A stretch of 35,212 nucleotides of DNA from positions 1 to 35,212 of the forward strand of contig CAJBVW010000219.1 of the NCBI GenBank assembly GCA_903959175.1, written 5' to 3'. Made by a program: the position numbers and the translations under genes. Below are positions 17,141 through 33,014 of this stretch, in pieces (within the stretch, counting starts at the first letter, position 1; every line of letters begins with the position of its first letter). This stretch comes from an uncultured Pseudomonadota bacterium. Its GTDB lineage: Bacteria; Myxococcota_A; UBA796; SXON01. The notes under the pieces were generated by a model. The model made no database searches. It saw only the letters and a program-made list of their open reading frames with translations, and was not told the DNA's origin.

Positions 17141-17273
17141 TCTCTGGATGTGGGCTCCCGCGGGGGCCGCGGCCGTCACGGGGTGTGTCAAATTGCACGG
17201 ATCGGTGTGCGTTCTGCGCGCCCGGGGCGGCCCCGTTCAGCGGAAGGTGCTGTCTCTCCCGGCGAAGTCGGGC

Positions 17274-17289
17274 TGGCCCACCCTTTGCA
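17274..17289 (+). promoter_or_regulatory. Candidate sigma-54 (-24/-12) promoter
   Basis: TGGCCCACCCTTTGCA matches the TGGCACG-N4-TTGCW consensus closely, with exactly ten bases between the GG (17275-17276) and the GC (17287-17288). The predicted start is near 17300 and the ATG at 17324 follows a GGAG, so the layout is coherent. It would need an enhancer-binding activator; two are encoded at 31545 and 33026, though no link to this site is shown. Confidence 0.65.
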
Positions 17290-17298
17290 GAAGGGTGG
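17278..17298 (+). repeat. Perfect 8-bp inverted repeat overlapping the -12 element
   Basis: CCACCCTT-TGCAG-AAGGGTGG. The dyad covers the -12 GC of the sigma-54 promoter candidate and runs to its start site. A protein bound here would block transcription. It may also act as a hairpin if transcription begins further upstream. Confidence 0.55.
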
Positions 17299-17323
17299 TC
17301 ATCCCCCTCACGGAGTTGAATCA

Positions 17324-17773
17324 ATGGCTATGCACTGGGTTGTGGTAGGCGATGCGGCGAGCGCCAAGATCTACGAGTCCGACGCGCTCCTCCAGGAGCT
17401 CACCCTGGTCGACGACATCCGCGTCTCGCACGATCGGGTCCAGCACCTCGACGCGAACGGTCACTCGACGACGCACCTCCCCGGCTCCGGTCAGGCTGGC
17501 GCCCAGGCCGAGCACGACCCCCACAAGATGACGGAGGAGCGCTTCGCCCGCGCCGTCGCGCAGACCATGAACGAGGCCGACGGCCACCACCGCTTCGAGC
17601 GCCTCATCGTCGTCGCGCCCCCGCGCTTCCTCGGTGACCTCCGCGCCGCGCTCTCCCACACCGCGAGCAAGCGCGTCGTGGCGAGCATCCACCACGACTG
17701 GACGCGCCTGTCCGGGCGTGACCTCGCGGAGCAGCTCCGCAAGAACATGCCCTCCGACGCCGGCATGCCGTAG
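17324..17773 (+). CDS. Host-attachment-family protein (PF10116-like)
   Basis: 149 residues. The ATG at 17324 has CGGAG 8 nt upstream. The sequence matches the 'protein required for attachment to host cells' family: an N-terminal strand 'HWVVVGDAASAKIYE', a His/Gly-rich loop with 'DPHKMTEERFARAVAQTMNEA', and a C-terminal 'FERLIVVAPPRFLGDLRAAL...VVASIHHDWTRLSGRDLAEQL'. The family was named from plant-associated bacteria, but it is related to the release-factor-like baeRF group and its molecular role is not established; the name should not be taken literally. Preceded by a sigma-54 promoter candidate, which suggests conditional expression. Confidence 0.8.
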   Translation: MAMHWVVVGDAASAKIYESDALLQELTLVDDIRVSHDRVQHLDANGHSTTHLPGSGQAGAQAEHDPHKMTEERFARAVAQTMNEADGHHRFERLIVVAPPRFLGDLRAALSHTASKRVVASIHHDWTRLSGRDLAEQLRKNMPSDAGMP

Positions 17774-17800
17774 CATGCGCTGGGGGCGGTGAAGGGCACG

Positions 17801-18820
17801 ATGATCCAACGTCCGATCCTCCTCGCCGCCGCCGCCCTGCTCGGGGTGATGGCCCTCGGCACCTACGGCTACGTCGCCATCGAGGGGTGGACCCCCTTCG
17901 ACGCCTTCTGGATGGTGGTGATCACCCTCACCACCATCGGCTTCGGCGAGGTCCACCCCCTCTCCGACGCCGGCCGCATCTTCACCCTCGGCGTCATCCT
18001 CGCCGGCGTGAGCATCGGCACCTACACGATGACGCAGGTGACCCAGCTGGTCATCGAAGGCAAGATGGGCGAAGCGCTCGGCGCGCGCCGCAGGAGACGA
18101 CGCATGGACGCGCTTCGGGACCACTACATCGTCGTCGGCTACGGACGCCTCGGGCAGACCATCGTGGAGGAGCTGCTCGCGAGCGGCTCCACCGTGTGCG
18201 TCATCGAGAAGGACGCCGCCTCCGTCGCGCGGGTCGAGGCCCTCGGCCACGCCGCCGTGCGGGGGGACGGCGCCAACGACGACGTCCTGCGCGCCGCCGG
18301 CATCCTGCGCGCGCGCGGCATCGCCATCGCGGTGTCCTCCAGCGCGGAGGCCGTGTTCGTCACGCTCTCGGCGCGGGAGCTGAACCCCGAGCTGAACATC
18401 GTCACCCGCGTCGCCGACAGCGAGCACGCGCTCAAGGCGAAGCGCGCCGGCGCGTCCAGCGTCGTGAGCCCGCACACGATGGGCGGCTGGCGCATGGCCC
18501 ACGGCCTCGTGCGCCCCCACGCGTCGAGCTTCCTCGACCTCGCGACGCTCGCCTCCCACGCGGAGCTCCTCCTCGAGGAGTTCGAGATGCCCCCCGGCTC
18601 GGCGCTCGCGGGCCGCAGCCTCGGCGACCTCCGCCTCGGCGAGCAGCTCGGCGTGCTGATCGTGGCGATCCGCCGCTCGAGCGGCGCGATGATCCCCACG
18701 CCGTCGGCGAACGAGGTCCTCGCCGCCGGTGACGTGCTCATCGCCATCGGCGCCCCCGCGAAGGTGCGGGCGCTCGGGCTGCGGATGGAGATCGTCCCGC
18801 GGGCCGCGCGCGTCGGCTGA
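17801..18820 (+). CDS. Two-helix potassium channel with RCK (TrkA-N/TrkA-C) domains
   Basis: 339 residues from the ATG at 17801 (AAGGG just upstream); a GTG at 17789 is an alternative. Two membrane helices (about residues 4-25 and 54-76) flank a pore helix and filter ITLTTIGFGEV. The canonical potassium filter is T-x-G-Y/F-G; here it is TIGFG. A cytoplasmic TrkA-N Rossmann domain follows, with GYGRLGQ at about 113-119 and the NAD-site acid 'VCVIEKD'. A TrkA-C domain closes the protein ('LGVLIVAIRRSSGAMIPTPS'). The MthK-like plan suggests a ligand-gated potassium channel in the inner membrane. It lies 27 bp after the host-attachment-family gene, so both may answer to the same sigma-54 promoter. 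Confidence 0.9.
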   Translation: MIQRPILLAAAALLGVMALGTYGYVAIEGWTPFDAFWMVVITLTTIGFGEVHPLSDAGRIFTLGVILAGVSIGTYTMTQVTQLVIEGKMGEALGARRRRRRMDALRDHYIVVGYGRLGQTIVEELLASGSTVCVIEKDAASVARVEALGHAAVRGDGANDDVLRAAGILRARGIAIAVSSSAEAVFVTLSARELNPELNIVTRVADSEHALKAKRAGASSVVSPHTMGGWRMAHGLVRPHASSFLDLATLASHAELLLEEFEMPPGSALAGRSLGDLRLGEQLGVLIVAIRRSSGAMIPTPSANEVLAAGDVLIAIGAPAKVRALGLRMEIVPRAARVG

Positions 18821-18830
18821 AGTCCGGAGC

Positions 18831-19058
18831 TTATTTGCTCACGGCCTCGTTCTGCTCCTTCAGATCTTCGGTCACGAAGTCGAGGAGGGTGGTGGAGAGC
18901 TCGATGATCTGCTGATGGGAGAAACCCTCCGTGCGGAGCTTCCGGTAGAAGCTGCGCGCCACGGAGCGGTTCCGGTTCCGGTACAGGTCCTGGAGTTCGT
19001 TCTGGGGCTGCATGGGAGATCCTCCGGCGACGGATGGGTGGGTTCGCTTCGTAGCCAT
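18831..19058 (-). CDS. Small protein of unknown function (75 aa)
   Basis: The ATG at 19058 (MATKRTHPS) has GGAG 6 nt upstream. A second in-frame ATG at 19013 (MQPQNELQ), preceded by GGAGG, would give 60 residues. The body 'SVARSFYRKLRTEGFSHQQI' and the following 'IELSTTLLDFVTEDLKEQ' looks like two or three amphipathic helices, with a possible helix-turn-helix-like middle. Codon bias and two good ribosome sites support a real gene. An AT-rich dyad sits upstream. Function unknown; a small DNA- or protein-binding regulator is one possibility. Confidence 0.65.
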   Translation of the reverse strand: MATKRTHPSVAGGSPMQPQNELQDLYRNRNRSVARSFYRKLRTEGFSHQQIIELSTTLLDFVTEDLKEQNEAVSK

Positions 19059-19089
19059 AGCAAGCTCCGTGCCGCGGCGGTGCGGAGTG

Positions 19090-19153: not shown

Positions 19154-19183
19154 GCGAGGTGCGTAAGCCCCTACGCACCTCGC
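19154..19183 (-). terminator. Perfect 12-bp inverted repeat, probable terminator of the FAD-oxidoreductase transcript
   Basis: GCGAGGTGCGTA-AGCCCC-TACGCACCTCGC. Twelve paired bases with a six-base loop begin 35 bp after the stop of the minus-strand oxidoreductase gene. There is no U-tract on either side, so it is an L-shaped or tail-less terminator, an mRNA-stabilising hairpin or a protein site. The position favours a 3'-end role. Confidence 0.5.
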
Positions 19184-30428: not shown

Positions 30429-31514
30429 ATGGCCGCACCCCGCCGCCCCGGCCTCGCGCTCAAGCTCGGCTCCCTCCTCACCCTCGCGGTCGTGGGGGTG
30501 ATGCTCCTCACCTCCGTGTTCACGCGCGCCTACGACGGCAGCGGCGACACCGCCTGGGTCGCGCTCGCCCTCGCCGTGGCCCTCGCCTTCGCGTTCGCCT
30601 TCGCCGCGGCGCTCGACTGGCTCGTGGTTCGCCCGCTCGTGCGCCTCGCGCGGCAGGTTCGCCGCATGGAAGAGGCCGACCTCGCCGAGCCCTTCGTCGC
30701 GACCGGCATCGACGAGCCGCGGGAGCTCGGCGAGGCGCTCGAGCGGCTCCGTACGCGCGTCCTCCTCGAACAGGAGGGCCAACGCCGGCTCAACGCCGAC
30801 CTCGAGCAGCGCGTGCAGGAGCGCACCCTCGCCCTCGCGGCGGCCCAGCGCGAGCTCTCGGACGCGGAGCGCCTCGCGAGCGTCGGCCGGCTCGCCGGCG
30901 GCGTGGCGCACGAGATCAACAACCCCGCGGGCGTCATCCTCGGGCGGGCCAGCTTCCTCCGGGAGATCCTGCAGGAGTCGGGCGGGGACCCCGAGCTCGT
31001 GGCGGACCTCGCGGTGATGGAGCGGCAGGCGGAGCGCATCCGCCAGATCACGGGCTCCCTCCTTCGCTTCGCGCGGAAGACCACCGGCGAGCGGCGCCCG
31101 GTGGACCTCGCCGACGTCGCCCGCGACGCCATCGCCCTCGCGCGGCTCGAAGCGCGCGCCCGCGGCGTCGAGCTGACGGGCACGCTCGCCCCCGCCCCGG
31201 TCCTCGCCGACCCGCACGCGCTCGAACAAGTGGCGTATAACCTACTCCGAAACGCGATCCACGCCGCGCGCGCGACCGTCCGCGTCCGCACCGGCCCCGA
31301 GGGCCTGGTCGTGGAGGACGACGGCGCCGGCGTCGCCCCCGAGCACCTCCCGCGCGTGTTCGAGCCCTTCTTCACCACGAAGGCGCCGGGCGAGGGCACG
31401 GGCCTCGGCCTCGCGGTGGTCCACGGCATCGTCGCGGAGCACGGGGGCCGGATCACCGCGGAGAACCTGCCCGACGCGGGGGCGCGCTTCGTGGTGAGCC
31501 TGCCCGCGCCGTAG
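30429..31514 (+). CDS. Sensor histidine kinase (HAMP, NtrB-like core)
   Basis: 361 residues. Two membrane helices (about 8-31 and 42-66) leave only about 10 residues outside, so there is no external sensor domain. A HAMP-like region (about 65-115) and coiled coil precede the H-box AGGVAHEINNPAGVI with phospho-acceptor His161. The ATPase has N-box NLLRNAIHAA, G1 VEDDGAGV, F-box FEPFFTTKAPGEGTGLGLAVV. It is of the class that pairs with NtrC-type regulators, and the next gene is one (30-bp gap). With no external domain, the signal may be membrane state or a protein partner. No Shine-Dalgarno before the ATG; GATACT lies 5 nt upstream. Confidence 0.93.
   Translation: MAAPRRPGLALKLGSLLTLAVVGVMLLTSVFTRAYDGSGDTAWVALALAVALAFAFAFAAALDWLVVRPLVRLARQVRRMEEADLAEPFVATGIDEPRELGEALERLRTRVLLEQEGQRRLNADLEQRVQERTLALAAAQRELSDAERLASVGRLAGGVAHEINNPAGVILGRASFLREILQESGGDPELVADLAVMERQAERIRQITGSLLRFARKTTGERRPVDLADVARDAIALARLEARARGVELTGTLAPAPVLADPHALEQVAYNLLRNAIHAARATVRVRTGPEGLVVEDDGAGVAPEHLPRVFEPFFTTKAPGEGTGLGLAVVHGIVAEHGGRITAENLPDAGARFVVSLPAP

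Positions 31515-31544: not shown

Positions 31545-33014
<1,470 letters not shown>

Follow-up and report, generated by a model that had tools for sequence, protein, structure and literature searches.

We analyzed a stretch of DNA of 35,212 nucleotides, hereafter named the window, and conclude that the site upstream of its Host_attach-family gene is a real sigma-54 promoter, and that this promoter, together with an upstream enhancer, is probably part of a small oxygen-linked regulon under the control of a globin-coupled histidine kinase and an NtrC-type regulator. This conclusion relies on the conservation of the promoter element among orthologs, on an enhancer motif obtained from the promoters of a cbb3 oxidase locus in this genome and in its relatives, and on the small number of sigma-54-like sites in the window's genome at which this motif is found.

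A Conserved Sigma-54 Element Precedes the Host_attach Gene

The gene located at 17324..17773 on the forward strand encodes a 149-aa protein of the Host_attach/baeRF family 12 (Pfam PF10116, E = 5.3e-30; PF18856, E = 9.1e-27), with scores above both Pfam cut-offs (105.2 bits for a cut-off of 26.7, and 94.8 bits for a cut-off of 27.7, respectively). A sigma-54 -24/-12 element, TGGCCCACCCTTTGCA (17274..17289, forward strand), starts 50 nt upstream of the ATG at 17324 and matches 10 of the 12 letters of the sigma-54 consensus. As the original prediction had stated, the spacing is exactly GG-N10-GC, a letter-for-letter match with the GG at 17275-17276 and the GC at 17287-17288. A GGAG sequence at 17312-17315 lies ahead of the ATG, and given that transcription usually starts about 12 nt from the GC of the -12 element, the start is predicted at 17300 (approximately ±1, forward strand), leading to a leader of about 24 nt. 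The sigma factor itself, RpoN, is encoded in the genome (PF00309, 57.7 bits). The motif TGGCNCN5TTGC occurs once in the window, for 0.22 occurrences expected, and appears at least once in 20 of 100 window shuffles, so that the sequence by itself is not decisive, while conservation is.

A Host_attach protein is present (E<=1e-8) in 17 of the 71 genomes of the class to which the window's genome belongs. We scored all 27 family matches, 22 of which were obtained at E<=0.001 (58 genomes) and 5 at E<=1e-8; two of the 27, L016 and L023, are fragments of the same locus. At 17 of the 27 matches we found a sigma-54 element that agrees with the consensus at 9-11 of its 12 letters, located 42-63 nt upstream in 16 of these 17 and 154 nt upstream in L015, where the match begins inside the gene. 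Such an element is carried by each of the eight close orthologs whose sequence includes the start of the gene (L002-L009, window included), with 9-11 letters of 12 and at a distance of 42-53 nt; the single elements in L004 and L005 fall within the shuffle range (209 and 227 of 1000). The ninth close ortholog, L010, which misses its N-terminal half, has no element. It is one of 10 family matches lacking a sigma-54 element of at least 9/12, of which four (L010, L016, L022 and L066) leave out the start of the gene and three (L017, L018 and L019) belong to the three genomes of the genus as second copies, L019 being the second Host_attach-family copy in the window's own genome. Judged by this conservation at the sequence level, the element is a real and conserved sigma-54 promoter of the Host_attach gene.

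Enhancer-Like Dyads Shared with Promoters of a cbb3 Oxidase Locus

Dyads resembling TGTG-N8-CACA, often in pairs, were first noticed upstream of the promoters of the Host_attach family, and palindrome enumeration on 12 of these promoters alone gave nothing above shuffles. We then enumerated palindromes, with no motif given, in a training set of 27 ccoN and regulator promoters from cbb3 loci, 2 from the window's genome and 25 from relatives. TGTG-N8-CACA ranked first among 4-bp arms in this set, being exact in 10 of the 27 promoters (shuffle maximum 5, in 100 shuffles) and present with at most one mismatch in 21 (shuffle maximum 15). A matrix seeded with TGTG-N8-CACA was built from 44 sites of these 27 promoters only, and then applied to the Host_attach promoters, with a pair score defined on two sites 20-24 bp apart. 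The pair score reached p<=0.004 in 8/8 Host_attach orthologs and the single best site p<=0.002 in 6/8 (p=0.028 in L006 and p=0.184 in L004), in tests that treat related sequences as independent, so that these p-values are overstated. In several orthologs a single strong site accounts for the pair score (17.9 and 1.7 for the two sites of L005), and both members of the pair score at least 6.7 bits in L003, L004, L007, L008 and L009. Among four paralogs, L021 and L023 have an enhancer and L014 and L020 have none.

In the window, the enhancer-like dyad UAS1, TGTGTCAAATTGCACG (17184..17199, unstranded), is located 90 bp before the sigma-54 element and scores 14.9 bits with the matrix from the 27 ccoN and regulator promoters, a value reached by 0 of 500 shuffles. 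A possible second dyad, UAS2, TGTGCGTTCTGCGCGC (17206..17221, unstranded), is degenerate: only its left half fits, and alone it scores -2.7 bits. We retain it as a candidate because of its position, 22 bp from UAS1, given that pairs are 22-23 bp apart in other orthologs. The pair score of the window is 12.2, a value reached by one of 500 shuffles, and it comes from UAS1. The promoter layout proposed in the original prediction had missed the dyad at 17184-17199, which links this promoter to the cbb3 oxidase/globin-kinase locus. Its expectation of a conditional, sigma-54-dependent activation of the Host_attach gene is by now well supported, by the element in 8/8 orthologs, by RpoN and by this upstream dyad.

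A Globin-Coupled Kinase and an NtrC-Type Regulator at the cbb3 Locus

In the window's genome, the cbb3 locus lies on contig C145, in the order regulator, convergent kinase, ccoN, ccoO, ccoP, a gene that we take to be ccoG-like, and a P-type ATPase gene. The regulator displays a receiver, a sigma-54 AAA+ domain and a Fis helix-turn-helix, that is, an NtrC-type architecture, and the kinase harbors Protoglobin, PAS, HisKA and HATPase domains. The two genes are adjacent, with no hybrid kinase between them at this locus. The best PDB match to the globin part of the kinase is 5ohe, entitled "Globin-coupled histidine kinase" (E 1.1e-33), which is presumably AfGcHK. The His and the Tyr that align with positions 99 and 45 of 5ohe, both of which have roles at the haem, are kept, and position 15 is Trp. 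We compared 20 regions around globin proteins of relatives and found kinase, regulator and ccoN together in 13 of them, and the kinase accompanied by either the regulator or ccoN in 4 more. A sigma-54 element of at least 11/12 was found in 14 of 16 ccoN upstream regions and in 13 of 16 regulator-divergent regions, own genome included; these 14 and 13 regions make up the training set of 27 promoters.

Regulator and Host_attach genes also tend to occur together. The regulator (E<=1e-120) is found in 46 of the 71 class genomes, that is, in 15 of the 17 genomes with Host_attach vs 31 of the 54 without it (Fisher p=0.017, kinship ignored); G021 and G056 have Host_attach and no regulator match at this threshold. 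In genome G061, an enhancer-bearing Host_attach gene is followed, after about 1.2 kb, by a regulator ortholog (60%); this Host_attach gene shares its enhancer with a divergent sigma-54 site and is about 2.6 kb from a protoglobin-STAS gene. In G003, about 13 kb separate an enhancer-bearing Host_attach paralog from a regulator copy, and the sigma-54 site upstream of that copy also bears the enhancer. As side observations on these two genomes, the G061 gene near Host_attach and the regulator (L181 5658-6671) encodes a Protoglobin domain fused to a STAS domain, and G003 has three regulator copies (L182 1909, L183 and L184), one of them directly behind an enhancer-bearing sigma-54 site.

The last helix of the regulator reads mostly [ST]RYALRYR in this class and [ST]RDQxRYR in six members of family f12, which is in keeping with a different site in f12. 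Near distant regulator homologs of that family (L195, L196, L198 and L200), possible TGNGGAAAT-type dyads replace TGTG-N8-CACA, which may reflect a parallel drift of the enhancer and the recognition helix.

Four Enhancer-Bearing Sites in the Genome, and Alternative Activators

With strict patterns, the genome has 51 sigma-54-like sites (30 TGGCMCN5TTGC and 21 CGGCACN5TTGC), and we scored the region upstream of each; for one of them, L223, a nearby contig end leaves little sequence to score. Enhancer scores of at least 14.9 bits were found at four of the 51 sites, the other 47 reaching at most 4.8. The four are the sites of ccoN (L040), the regulator-divergent region, a universal stress protein gene (L055) and the Host_attach gene of the window; the first two belong to the matrix training set and the last two lie outside of it. 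At the first three of these sites the dyads come in pairs. The ccoN and universal stress protein genes are judged as targets by their enhancers only. Gapped pattern searches in the same genome returned the two C145 promoters together with L201, L204 and L205. We rejected L201 and L205 as further members, given the low scores at their places (1.8 bits for L208 and 4.8 bits for L213). The enhancer motif and the sigma-54 element together predict regulon members from sequence.

TGTG-N8-CACA has the same half-site spacing as the sites of CRP/FNR-family proteins, and a protein of this type might bind the dyads while the sigma-54 activator acts elsewhere. Fnr is indeed named as a cbb3 oxidase regulator in the accessible text of a study of Myxococcus xanthus (PMC11841059). 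We nonetheless consider this unlikely, since the sites are mostly paired 21-23 bp apart and stand ahead of sigma-54 elements at about 45-120 bp, in many cases next to the gene of a sigma-54 activator, and in the scan of the 51 sigma-54-like sites the motif marks only a small gene set. A sigma-54 activator other than the one on C145 could also drive the promoter, for instance one of the two encoded side by side in the window (31545-33014 and about 33.0-34.4 kb, both on the forward strand). Both carry a sigma-54 activator domain and the first, a response regulator, also has a receiver, but in many genomes the enhancer motif is shared with promoters adjacent to the gene of a different activator, which makes such a role for another activator quite improbable.

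The 8-bp inverted repeat CCACCCTT-TGCAG-AAGGGTGG (17278..17298, unstranded) overlaps the -12 element, and the original prediction read it as a means of local repression by a MarR-like protein encoded by the facing gene. The repeat is exact, as described, but its significance did not hold: the window contains 15 perfect 8-bp inverted repeats with a loop of 3-8, vs 9-32 in 20 shuffles, and in the comparison of the intergenic region among relatives the GG/GC element is conserved while the dyad is missing from the equivalent position of 11 other family promoters, whose longest arms there are 3-5 bp. The facing gene has no MarR family match at E<=1 in a Pfam search, and no tblastn match to it was found at other Host_attach loci (E<=1e-3; flanks of about 1.5 or 4 kb), so it is not a conserved neighbor. 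Given the chance frequency, the lack of conservation and the lack of a Pfam MarR match, we regard both the dyad and the facing gene as incidental; the repeat is most likely a coincidence, and its reading as an operator, which we rejected, is very improbable. Finally, it is scarcely credible that the sigma-54 element is itself a chance match and that the gene uses another promoter: such motifs do arise in shuffles of the window, as described above, but the position is conserved at 8/8 orthologs, with enhancer sites.

A Predicted Lone Middle Domain Encoded Next to a Potassium Channel

A sequence search of the PDB with the Host_attach protein gave no match at E<=1. An AlphaFold2 model was built from 8 sequences (pLDDT 81.3, pTM 0.77). 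The best fold match is the ribosome hibernation factor Balon (8rd8, Foldseek E 4.6e-6), and the Balon structures 8rdv and 8rdw align with Z 12.7 and rmsd 4.2 over 126 residues, corresponding to Balon 120-264. The next folds are Msmeg1130 (Z 12.4) and Rv2629 (Z 11.8), followed by eRF1/aRF1/Pelota at about 11, and then by acetate and propionate kinases at Z 7-8. The predicted fold is nearest to the middle domains of Balon, Msmeg1130 and Rv2629, with eRF1/aRF1 close behind, and because Balon leads eRF1 by about 1 Z unit only, the safe statement is that the model depicts a lone middle domain of the eRF1/Pelota/Balon type. Balon has a three-domain aeRF1 architecture; the Host_attach protein is a single domain whose entire 149-aa model aligns to Balon 120-264 only. 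It lacks the two flanking domains of Balon, and is a candidate for binding to the ribosome.

Three baeRF-1 families are reduced to the core domain, and the baeRF-1 clade has been proposed to insert into the ribosomal A site (PMC6514570, accessible text). Rv2629 and Msmeg1130 are induced by hypoxia and inhibit translation, according to the accessible text of PMC10901736. Based on the fold likeness, the A-site proposal and the hypoxia induction of Rv2629 and Msmeg1130, we propose that the Host_attach protein likely acts on ribosomes when oxygen is short.

The next gene (17801..18820, forward strand, with an alternative GTG start at 17789) encodes a potassium channel with TrkA-N/TrkA-C domains (PF07885, PF02254 and PF02080), and is likely the second gene of a Host_attach operon. 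Within the fetched flanks, the channel gene adjoins Host_attach in 2 of the 8 orthologs only, those of the window and L003. Other neighbors of Host_attach include a universal stress protein, a PEP synthase-like enzyme and a Nuo51-type protein in L026, and a cation P-type ATPase in L024. None of the papers listed in our literature searches linked the Host_attach family to sigma-54 or low oxygen. The accessible parts of the Burkholderia literature searched contain nothing on the Host_attach protein family, and the words "cytochrome" and "attachment" do not appear in the accessible main text of PMC12316311, which deals with sigma-54 regulons. The role proposed above would give a testable function, as a low-oxygen, ribosome-directed protein, to members of a family whose name is "required for attachment to host cells".

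Other Sigma-54 Features in the Window

Downstream of the channel gene, a 60-aa protein with no Pfam match over cut-off is encoded at 18834-19013 on the reverse strand, and features upstream of its gene were noted with it at 19060-19074 (reverse strand) and 19159-19178. The protein is found in 60 of the 71 class genomes. Among the best 20 of these 60 loci, all 20 display a sigma-54 element of 10-12/12 letters, 46-70 nt upstream of the gene. A different dyad, GTGCGTA-N6-TACGCAC, often paired, lies upstream of the element, and GCGTA-N6-TACGC is exact in 15 of the best 20 loci (shuffle maximum 4, in 60 shuffles). From these sequence comparisons, the gene apparently belongs to a second, separate class-wide sigma-54 system. 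Concerning the two activators of the window, the second (about 33.0-34.4 kb) apparently has an FHA-like N terminus, and a histidine kinase-like ORF (30429-31514) precedes the two; both observations were made by eye.

Proposed Mechanism and Comparison with Known Systems

We infer a mechanism in which the globin-coupled histidine kinase would sense oxygen and control the adjacent NtrC-type regulator encoded beside the cbb3 genes. The active regulator would bind TGTG-N8-CACA dyads, mostly paired, and drive RNA polymerase-sigma-54 at ccoN, at the regulator-divergent site, at the universal stress protein gene and at the Host_attach-potassium channel pair, presumably transcribed as a two-gene operon and activated at low oxygen, where the Host_attach protein would act on ribosomes. 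As for the sign of this response, the NmpU homolog of Anaeromyxobacter is reported to be active with oxygen, and NmpU and NmpS work reciprocally in the Nmp system (PMC11841059, accessible text). No NmpS-like inverter was seen in the cbb3/globin-kinase cluster, so that low-oxygen induction is argued from the target genes and, given the activity of the Anaeromyxobacter homolog with oxygen, is a tentative choice of sign. On a broader and tentative reading, which may well prove too far-reaching, the system would directly couple oxygen shortage to high-affinity respiration by cbb3 and to the silencing of translation, through a Balon-like protein of one domain produced along with a potassium channel. 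It would then independently parallel the mycobacterial hypoxia regulon, and use TGTG-N8-CACA as an enhancer code of its own.

Rv2629 belongs to the DosR regulon of mycobacteria, and DosR, to our knowledge, is not a sigma-54 activator; it is unrelated to the NtrC-type regulator described here. The likeness lies in the hypoxia control of universal stress proteins, which is proposed here and is found under DosR, as given in the accessible text of PMC2914252.

The closest comparison is with NmpRSTU of M. xanthus, which comprises the protoglobin kinase NmpU, the hybrid kinase NmpS and the NtrC-type regulator NmpR acting with sigma-54, and in which NmpR targets include a cbb3 oxidase with a P-type ATPase, a universal stress protein, hemN and hemerythrin (PMC11841059, accessible text). 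A word search of the accessible main text of the same paper returned no host attachment, release factor or potassium targets. Both systems link a protoglobin kinase to an NtrC-type regulator, sigma-54 and paired enhancers, and both have as targets a cbb3 oxidase with a P-type ATPase and a universal stress protein, here by enhancer only. The enhancers differ: the NmpR consensus is GCGCA-N5-TGCGC, with sites mostly 14-15 nt apart (PMC11841059, accessible text), whereas here we find TGTG-N8-CACA in pairs 21-23 bp apart, start to start. Within 200 bp upstream of the window element, the best match to GCGCA-N5-TGCGC is 7/10, and a scan of the sigma-54 sites (>=11/12) of 36 loci gave a match of at least 9/10 at L184 and L185 only; we thus rejected the published NmpR consensus as the enhancer of these promoters. 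The gene layout also differs, in that NmpS stands between NmpU and NmpR, as far as the accessible text describes it, while here kinase and regulator genes are neighbors, with none between them in the cluster. Taken together, these comparisons suggest a counterpart of the Myxococcus oxygen-utilization circuit in another class, one that appears to be uncultured, where the genes are more simply arranged and the enhancer is different.
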